In this document: one piece after another, positions 25,374 through 40,862 of the stretch
Layout of the letters: every line of letters starts with the position of its first letter
Numbering within the stretch: the stretch's first letter is position 1
Source of the DNA: Thermoplasmata archaeon
Lineage (GTDB): Archaea > Thermoplasmatota > Thermoplasmata > Lutacidiplasmatales > UBA184
Length of the DNA stretch: 64,000 bases
NCBI GenBank assembly: GCA_021844945.1
Contig: JAKBSJ010000001.1
Location: 310,001 to 374,000 of the forward strand
Reading direction: 5' to 3'
Made by a program: the position numbers and the translations under genes
Notes under the pieces: generated by a model
What the model was told of the DNA's origin: nothing
Seen by the model: the letters and a program-made list of their open reading frames with translations, nothing else
The model's database searches: none

Positions 25374-26354
25374 TTAGAGCATCACGCGGAGCTGGAGCTT
25401 GTCCGTGAGCTCCTTGTAGCGATTGCGGATCGTGACCTCGGTGACGCCTGCAACCTCGGCAACGTCGCGCTGGGTACGACGCTCACCGGCTTGGACGCTC
25501 GCGATATAGATCGCGGCGGCGGCGACCCCGGTGGGGCCGCGGCCGCTCGTCAGCTCGTGCTCCGTCGCGAGCTTGAGGATCTCGTTGGCGCGGGTCTGAA
25601 TCTCGCCCTTCAACTTGAGCTCGGAACAGAAACGCTGGATGTAGTCCTGCGGCTTGGTGGGAAGCAGTTTGAGCTGGAGCTCCCGAGTCATGAACCGGTA
25701 GGTCCGCCCGATCTCCTTGCGGGCGATGTGCGACTTCGAGGCGATTTCGTCCAGCGTCCGGGGCACGTTGCACTGTCGGCAGCTTCCGTAAAGAGACGCC
25801 GCGACCACGCCCTCGATCGACCGACCACGGATCAGGTTCCGATTGACCGCCTTGCGGTAGATGATCGCCGCGGTCTCGCGCACGTTGCGGGGCAACCCGA
25901 GACCGGATGCGATACGGTCGAGCTCGGCGAGGGCGAACGATAGGTTGCGTTCGGTCGCACTGGACACCCGGATGCGCCGCTGCCACTTCCTCAGTCGGTA
26001 GAGCTGCGCCCGGTTGCGCGTCGGGATCGACTTCCCGAACGGGTCGCGGTTGCGCCACCCGATCTCGGTCGTCAGCCCCTTGTCGTGCATCGTAAGGGTG
26101 GTAGGGGCCCCCGTCCGCGCGCGCTTGTCTCCTTGCTCGTGGTCGAAGGAGCGCCACTCCGGCCCCTGGTCGATCATCGACTCCTCGAGCACGAGGCCGC
26201 ATTCGTCGCAGACGACCTCGGCCCGCTCGTAGTCCCGGGTCAAGTGCGTGGAACCGCAGTTGGTACAGCGCGTAGCGGCGACGAGGTCTTCGGGCTTCCC
26301 GTTGGTCCGCTCCTTGCGTGCGGCGGGGGTTTCGCGGGGGTCCGCCGTGCTCAT
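25374..26354 (-). CDS. tfb: Transcription initiation factor IIB (TFB)
   Basis: The 326-aa protein has an N-terminal zinc ribbon ([15 protein letters not shown] and [12 protein letters not shown], residues ~28-60), the B-finger/linker ([18 protein letters not shown]), and two cyclin folds with [18 protein letters not shown] and [17 protein letters not shown]. The C-terminal [22 protein letters not shown] binds BRE DNA. It is the full-length general factor that recruits RNA polymerase. It overlaps gar1 by four bases (ATGA). Confidence 0.95.
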
Positions 26355-26704
26355 GGAGCCTCGCGATCCACACCCTCGCGGATGAGCCGACGGCCGAGCA
26401 ACGCCAACCCTTCCTCGGCCGACACCGGCCGACGAGGTCGAACGCTCAAGTACGGGCGCTCGACGGGACCGAACACCCGAACGACGCGCCCGCGGAATCG
26501 GCCACGAGGGTCGGAGACGATCGTCCCTTCCGGGGCCACCGAAGAATCAGCGGATCGAACGGTAAGCGCTCCGGTGGGAGTTACGGCGAGGACCGTGCCG
26601 ATCTCTCGGGCGGTCGTCGTGCGGCCCCGTACGGTCGACAACTCGTATAAAGCACTTTCGGAATATACATAAGCATTTCGGTCGAGCCTTCCCGGGGTGG
26701 CCAT
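26351..26704 (-). CDS. gar1: H/ACA RNP protein Gar1-like
   Basis: The 117-aa protein contains the Gar1 beta-barrel pattern: [18 protein letters not shown], then [21 protein letters not shown] and [10 protein letters not shown]. It has a short N-terminal extension and a C-terminal helix. Gar1 is a subunit of the archaeal pseudouridylation RNP with Cbf5, Nop10 and L7Ae. A gar1-tfb gene pair is widespread in archaea, which supports the call. It overlaps the upstream ubiquitin-like gene by one base (TGATG). Confidence 0.85.
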
Positions 26705-26913
26705 CAGCCGCCGCTGAATGTCGGAACGATCTGAAGCCGGTGGAGTCCTGCGATGGGCCGGTCGTGAGGCACGGGTCGTCCGTCGATCAGCACCGCGGAT
26801 CCCTCCGCATAGAGCCCGACCGCACGAACGACGTCCCGCACCGTCCGATCCGCGGGAAGCTCAATCCGACGCCACTCCGATCGGCGGGCACGGACGATCT
26901 CGACGTCGAGCAC
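26704..26913 (-). CDS. Ubiquitin-like/ThiS-MoaD-fold protein ending in Gly-Gly (SAMP-like)
   Basis: From GTG 26913 the product is 69 aa: a beta-grasp pattern (LDVEIVRARRSEWRRIELP, then TVRDVVRAVGLYAEGSAVLI) with the typical VLIDGRPVPHDRPIAGLHRLQ and a C-terminal diglycine (TFSGG). That size and ending match archaeal SAMP-type modifiers and sulfur carriers. The longer frame to 27009 runs through the tRNA-Ser gene, so I reject it and use the GTG 21 bp after the tRNA 3' end. It leads the Ubl-gar1-tfb operon. Confidence 0.75.
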   Translation of the reverse strand: MLDVEIVRARRSEWRRIELPADRTVRDVVRAVGLYAEGSAVLIDGRPVPHDRPIAGLHRLQIVPTFSGG

Positions 26914-26934
26914 TACTGGAGCCTCGGTGGGAGG

Positions 26935-27053
26935 CGCTGAGGGGGAGAGCTTCCGAGGGGGGAGATCCTCCCCTGCCTCCTTTGAACTCCCGCGATGCAT
27001 ACGCATCACCAGATCTCGAATCTGGCGCCTTGGCCGAGCTAGGCTACCTCAGC
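26935..27053 (-). tRNA. tRNA-Ser(CGA) with a 32-nt intron in the T-loop
   Basis: The 5' end is at 27053. The acceptor stem GCTGAGG/CCTCAGC, D-arm, anticodon arm (CCAGA, loop TTCGAGA, TCTGG; anticodon CGA) and a 5-bp long variable arm (GATGC/GCATC) fold normally. The T-stem GGGAG is followed by TTCAAA, then 32 extra bases (26949-26980), then T and the matching CTCCC. The discriminator is G at 26935 and CCA is not encoded in full. A TATA-like ACAAATACG lies about 25-33 bp upstream (27078-27086). Confidence 0.88.
26949..26980 (-). other. Intron in tRNA-Ser(CGA) between positions 59 and 60
   Basis: Removing these bases restores a 7-nt T-loop (TTCAAAT) and a perfect 5-bp T-stem. The boundaries can fold as a bulge-helix-bulge: bulge AAG (cut AA/G), central helix TTCA with GGAA (last pair A-G mismatched), bulge GCT (cut GC/T), and inner helix GAGG/CCTC. 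This is the motif recognised by archaeal tRNA splicing endonuclease. Confidence 0.8.
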
Positions 27054-40747: not shown

Positions 40748-40862
40748 CGCGGGGAGGGGGAGTTTCCGGGAGCCGGCGCAGACCGTCTCCCCTTTGAACC
40801 CCCGAGGTGAAATCACCACTGGATTAGCAATCCAGCGCCTTACCGGGCTGGGCCATCCCCGC
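40748..40862 (-). tRNA. tRNA-Ser(GCT) with a 31-nt intron in the T-loop
   Basis: The 5' end is at 40862. The acceptor is GCGGGGA/TCCCCGC, the anticodon arm is CTGGA, loop TTGCTAA, TCCAG (anticodon GCT), and a long variable arm is present. The T-stem GGGGG is followed by TTCAAA, 31 extra bases (40762-40792), then T and CCCCC. The discriminator is G at 40748. A TATA-like TCCTTAAGGA lies about 25-30 bp upstream (near 40886-40895). The layout is the same as in tRNA-Ser(CGA). Confidence 0.88.
40762..40792 (-). other. Intron in tRNA-Ser(GCT) between positions 59 and 60
   Basis: Excision restores the TTCAAAT loop. The bulge-helix-bulge is as in the other Ser gene: bulge AAG, central TTCA with GGAA, bulge ACT, and inner helix GGGAG/CTCCC. 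The intron bodies of the two genes differ, while the splice-site bases are nearly identical. Confidence 0.8.

Follow-up and report, generated by a model that had tools for sequence, protein, structure and literature searches.

The interrupted tRNA-Ser(CGA) gene

The window, that is, the whole stretch of 64,000 nucleotides that we analyzed, corresponds to G000:C3:310001-374000 of a 1.26-Mb assembly that is 86.7% complete. Read directly, its minus strand carries at 27053-26935 a class II serine tRNA gene with the acceptor stem GCTGAGG/CCTCAGC, a CGA anticodon, a long variable arm and G73. The T-loop of this gene is split by 32 bases (26949-26980), flanked by GGGAG-TTCAAA and T-CTCCC, which lie between positions 59 and 60 and not at the canonical 37/38 site one base 3' of the anticodon. 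The parts of the gene and of its bulge-helix-bulge (BHB) motif, each with its support, are as follows.

26981..27053 (-): 5' exon of tRNA-Ser(CGA), positions 1-59, 73 nt; spliced form recognised as tRNA-Ser(CGA)
26949..26980 (-): 32-nt T-loop intron between tRNA positions 59/60; intron-less alleles GGGAGTTCAAA-TCTCCCCCTCAGCG
26935..26948 (-): 3' exon, position 60 to discriminator G73, 14 nt; sequence and recognition of the spliced form
26983..26986 (-): BHB central helix, exon strand T54 T55 C56 A57; sequence and covariation of base 57 with its intron partner
26951..26954 (-): BHB central helix, intron strand GGAA, I-6 to I-3, the G at I-6 opposite A57; sequence and covariation
26976..26979 (-): inner BHB helix, 5' strand GAGG; covariation across 29 distinct orthologous introns
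26955..26958 (-): inner BHB helix, 3' strand CCTC; covariation across the same 29 introns

The original prediction had placed the insert correctly to the base, and every element of the BHB it described was right: bulges AAG and GCT of three bases each, a central helix TTCA/GGAA with one A-G mismatch, and an inner helix GAGG/CCTC. It had also claimed that removal of the 32 bases leaves a standard T-arm, and this is what we observed, as ARAGORN reported nothing in the unspliced gene and called a clean tRNA-Ser(CGA) only once it was spliced, in agreement with the intron-less alleles described below. Rfam RF00005 gave the locus 26.1 bits, which is under its cut-off, with the T-arm wrong. An intact second tRNA-Ser(CGA), which had been named as evidence that would count against the prediction, was not found by tRNA search in the assembly (86.7% complete). 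Downstream of the tRNA gene, the same strand carries genes for a SAMP2/ThiS-like small protein (26704-26928) and TFB (25374-26354), as well as a short Gar1-like ORF with no Pfam match (26351-26704).

Other interrupted tRNA genes of the genome

The T-loop intron of Ser(CGA) is not an isolated oddity: about one third of the roughly 40 tRNA genes found in the genome, 13 in all, have a T-loop intron, which is typical of the whole family. Ten of them, namely Ser(CGA), Ser(GCT), Ser(GGA), Ala(GGC), Gly(TCC), Arg(TCG), Arg(TCT), Glu(CTC), Gln(CTG) and Asn(GTT), came from tRNA search and inspection of weak matches; a covariance model built from these ten (R1) added Lys(TTT), His(GTG) and Leu(TAG). Since ARAGORN with introns allowed miscalled Glu(CTC) (with a false T-arm), an initiator tRNA-Met with a D-loop intron (as SeC) and Leu(TAA) (as Ser), T-loop introns were called by hand and with a dedicated scan. 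The second such gene in the window was overlooked by ARAGORN, which recognised its spliced form.

40748..40862 (-): tRNA-Ser(GCT); RF00005 26.1 bits, R1 85.2 bits
40762..40792 (-): its T-loop intron, 31 nt, with a BHB that likewise has an A57-G mismatch; sequence and spliced form

Most T-loop introns of the genome, that of Ser(CGA) included, have a mismatch or a wobble pair in the central helix. As read from the sequence, tRNA-Lys(TTT) (L053 1501-1643) and tRNA-Leu(TAG) (L055 1501-1651) each apparently have a D-loop intron in addition to that in the T-loop, and the initiator tRNA-Met labelled tRNA-SeC by ARAGORN (L025 1501-1606) has an apparent D-loop intron; anticodon-loop introns were read in Met, Tyr and Leu(TAA). 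No tRNA for Asp, Pro, Trp, Arg(GCG) or AUA-reading Ile was detected in the assembly; these may lie in the missing sequence or be hidden by further introns. We also considered spread by recent copying of one intron. The mean pairwise similarity of the 13 introns (0.43) barely exceeds that of shuffled sequences (0.40), hence there is no sign of recent transposition.

Splicing endonuclease and ligase

One EndA gene was detected in the genome, with two domains at C3:144565-145362. The encoded protein (P0001) gave two PF01974 and two PF02778 matches, that is, two tandem units in one polypeptide, and its best matches were the solved alpha'2 and related enzymes. The catalytic residues lie in the C-terminal unit, where Y284 and K330 are present in all 111 homologs and H287 in 106 of them. 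The segment YG-SRVGARLE-LSLIE, which by its alignment offsets with the solved chains probably corresponds to the CSL/ASL site, was gap-free against A. fulgidus and in 111 relatives and had no lysine, so that in the alignment EndA has no Lys-bearing CSL or ASL loop insertion beside the active site. These features suggest a homodimer of the alpha'2 type. The genome also encodes the tRNA ligase RtcB (C5:219574-220878), and hence has both the endonuclease and the ligase. An identification of the endonuclease type had been asked for in the original prediction; the answer, a single two-domain alpha'2-type EndA without a CSL/ASL insert, is the opposite of what one would expect from crenarchaea.

With these two enzymes, splicing of the Ser(CGA) precursor would proceed as follows. 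T54-T55-C56-A57 would pair with I-6 to I-3 of the intron, forming three Watson-Crick pairs with A57 opposite G, and the resulting BHB, with its two 3-nt bulges, would lie between the T-stem and the intron hairpin. The two-domain EndA, as a putative alpha'2 homodimer, would then cut each bulge after its second base, and RtcB would ligate the exons into a normal serine tRNA. From the sequence evidence we consider it very probable that the Ser(CGA) insert is an archaeal protein-spliced tRNA intron at 59/60 that is processed in this way by the single two-domain EndA and RtcB.

What counts against this role of EndA is the rule given in reviews, by which alpha'2 enzymes are narrow in specificity and cleave only canonical BHBs (PMC4033280, PMC6379350), set against the mismatched or wobble-bearing helices of most introns here. 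Broad specificity is attributed to enzymes of the (alpha-beta)2 and epsilon2 types (PMC6379350), and the CSL or ASL loop is borne by crenarchaeal and ARMAN enzymes (PMC6379350, PMC12397907). One could therefore argue that the two-domain EndA does not act alone and that an additional beta-like or epsilon-like subunit, or another endonuclease, lies unseen in the part missing from the incomplete assembly. We find this improbable, as the EndAs detected in 120 genomes of the class gave no more than two domain matches per genome, with no sign of a separate subunit gene in this Pfam search, which a very diverged subunit would escape. Likewise, EndA matches were present in 16 of 18 T-loop-intron carriers across the phylum (two had none and one had a duplicated contig). 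A single two-domain EndA is thus usual in the class, and also in those T-loop-intron carriers of other classes that were checked.

Because the only EndA detected is of this two-domain alpha'2 type without CSL/ASL, the lineage is an exception to the published rule by which enzymes of the euryarchaeal type occur only with canonical introns. The original prediction of an endonuclease tolerant of relaxed motifs needs to be qualified. The motif is indeed slightly relaxed by its one A-G mismatch, but the T-loop position alone implies no relaxed enzyme, since other T-loop introns of Thermoplasmatota are often fully paired in the central helix; it is the purine-purine mismatch alone that might imply one. 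Tolerance of the A57-G mismatch may be a general property of alpha'2 enzymes, as homodimeric EndA is reported to cut BHL-like motifs also (PMC8707768), or it may be an adaptation of the lineage. More tentatively, and with somewhat less confidence than we would need to favor it, we put forward that a euryarchaeal alpha'2 EndA lacking CSL and ASL gained, by a third route besides these two loops, the ability to cut BHBs whose central helix ends in A57-G, whereby introns could spread to about one in three tRNA genes, always at the same T-loop site.

Allelic and covariation evidence for splicing

Five genomes of the family (G033, G113, G023, G282 and G042) carry an intron-less tRNA-Ser(CGA) that is identical to the predicted spliced product, and in three more (G105, G244 and G326) intron-less CGA genes with a diverged anticodon arm have a junction equal to the predicted spliced one. 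As these alleles equal the spliced product, the intron boundaries are exact and cannot slide. At exactly the Ser(CGA) junction, some related genomes thus have an insert in this tRNA and others have none, and this, together with the covariation of the BHB helices, argues that the insert is not a chance one.

Covariation was examined in 29 distinct orthologous introns of Ser(CGA), which were gathered by BLAST; their mature tRNAs are 98-99% identical while introns of the same length are about 56% identical. The first four inner pairs were paired in 91% of cases among these orthologs as against 71% with shuffled partners (none of 2000 shuffles reached 91%) and 31-59% when the strands were slid. 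In the central helix, base 57 and I-6 changed together: G57 was opposite C in 30 of 30 cases, and A57 was opposite G in 71 of 79 and opposite U in the other 8. These counts are inflated by relatedness, and loci gathered by R1 are biased to its structure, but the changes also occur inside the ortholog sets of Arg(TCT), Asn(GTT), Met, Arg(CCG) and Ser(TGA). A57 was opposite G in 67 of 84 introns from loci of the family and in only 4 of 25 from other families of the class, which points to the A57-G deviation as characteristic of the lineage. The motif therefore has the 3/3 bulges, the four-position helix and the covariation of a BHB, and is fully Watson-Crick in only some copies. Taken together, these comparisons make us highly confident that the inserts are introns spliced by EndA, with cleavage and ligation as proposed above.

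It may be asked whether the mature tRNA instead keeps the 32 bases as a hairpin that enlarges its T-loop, as the minimum free energy fold of the unspliced Ser(CGA) keeps the cloverleaf and closes the T-stem round the insert (z = -3.7). The T-loop is needed for contact with the D-loop, and pairing of positions 54-57 in the BHB would occlude it; moreover, the helices preserved are those of the splicing motif, and the intron-less alleles of close relatives have exactly the same exons, so we regard retention as very improbable. Still harder to credit is a silent, decaying gene that has retained a random insertion, for, though ARAGORN is blind to the gene and its Rfam score is low, it is the sole tRNA-Ser(CGA) found in the assembly, its exons match those of its orthologs at the high identity given above with all stems intact, its insert keeps covarying helices, and 12 other tRNAs of the genome are split at the same junction.

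Distribution in Thermoplasmatota

In searches of relatives with R1, each of the 51 genomes of the genus gave matches at E up to 1e-12. Of 300 genomes sampled from the class, all 62 of the family matched, with 4-11 matches each, a lower bound as few candidates were scored per genome; outside the family 94 of 238 genomes matched, nearly always once or twice. Those matches outside the family that were inspected proved to be true T-loop introns, and Arg(TCT) or Lys(TTT) was often the tRNA concerned. T-loop introns also occur in other classes of the phylum, and Thermoplasmatota outside the family usually have 0-3 of them, apart from one other enriched lineage (G428) with about 10. In this lineage, which belongs to a different class, G57 is often opposite A in the T-loop introns (loci L274-L283), the reverse purine-purine mismatch. 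No T-loop introns were found by R1 among the genomes listed of family f19, whose EndA, of about 290 aa with one detectable domain, resembles the Archaeoglobus, Thermoplasma and Ferroplasma enzymes.

The relatives of EndA at 57-97% identity are from Thermoplasmata MAGs, including UBA184 and AcS/SubAcS bins, which have been placed in Ca. Lutacidiplasmatales, an order that inhabits acidic environments (PMC9287336); the text of that study does not mention introns, and we found no report of T-loop tRNA introns in Thermoplasmatota in the open-access literature. The host is thus a Thermoplasmata archaeon, in agreement with the original prediction of a euryarchaeal-type genome with a BHB intron at 59/60 of the T-loop. 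Its T-loop introns belong to a lineage-wide set that spread through a Thermoplasmatota family corresponding to Ca. Lutacidiplasmatales and has been kept there. The single Ser(CGA) gene is ordinary in its family, and what is notable is the family-wide pattern with this type of enzyme.

Comparison with known systems and significance

The introns described here resemble the non-canonical BHB introns of Thermoproteota, for example of Pyrobaculum (PMC3218864, PMC8450103), in being short, in their positions outside the anticodon loop and BHB junctions, and in occurring many per genome and sometimes two per gene. Thermoproteota, however, have a two-gene (alpha-beta)2 endonuclease with CSL, whereas here there is one two-domain gene without it, and the introns are concentrated at 59/60 with base 57 mostly opposite G. 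With the canonical 37/38 introns of euryarchaea they share 3-nt bulges, a four-position helix and a single-gene EndA, and the genome has anticodon-loop introns as well (Tyr, Met and Leu(TAA)); they differ from them in the T-loop position and in the purine-purine mismatch of the central helix. The tRNAs of the Asgard Atabeyarchaeia and Freyarchaeia (PMC11291895) are similar in having many introns at non-canonical positions in a non-thermophilic lineage, but the phylum is different. The alpha'2 EndAs of Archaeoglobus, Thermoplasma and Ferroplasma (1RLV, 2GJW, 2OHC; PMC8707768) likewise have two tandem units in one chain, the catalytic Tyr/His/Lys in the second unit and a gap-free CSL/ASL site, and it is these that are reviewed as enzymes of narrow specificity (PMC6379350, PMC4033280). 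We thus have a real, lineage-wide variant of an already known kind of element.

As the ARAGORN results show, tRNA finders can overlook about one in three tRNA genes of such genomes, and since interrupted genes can be missed in this way, tRNA losses reported in these groups need to be rechecked. Reviews tie tRNA introns outside the anticodon loop to endonucleases of the (alpha-beta)2 or epsilon2 type and describe euryarchaeal enzymes as confined to canonical BHBs. The archaea described here, a large group from acid environments, have many T-loop introns alongside a single two-domain EndA. Their G57-C, A57-U and A57-G introns and their intron-less alleles form a natural substrate series for the specificity of EndA.
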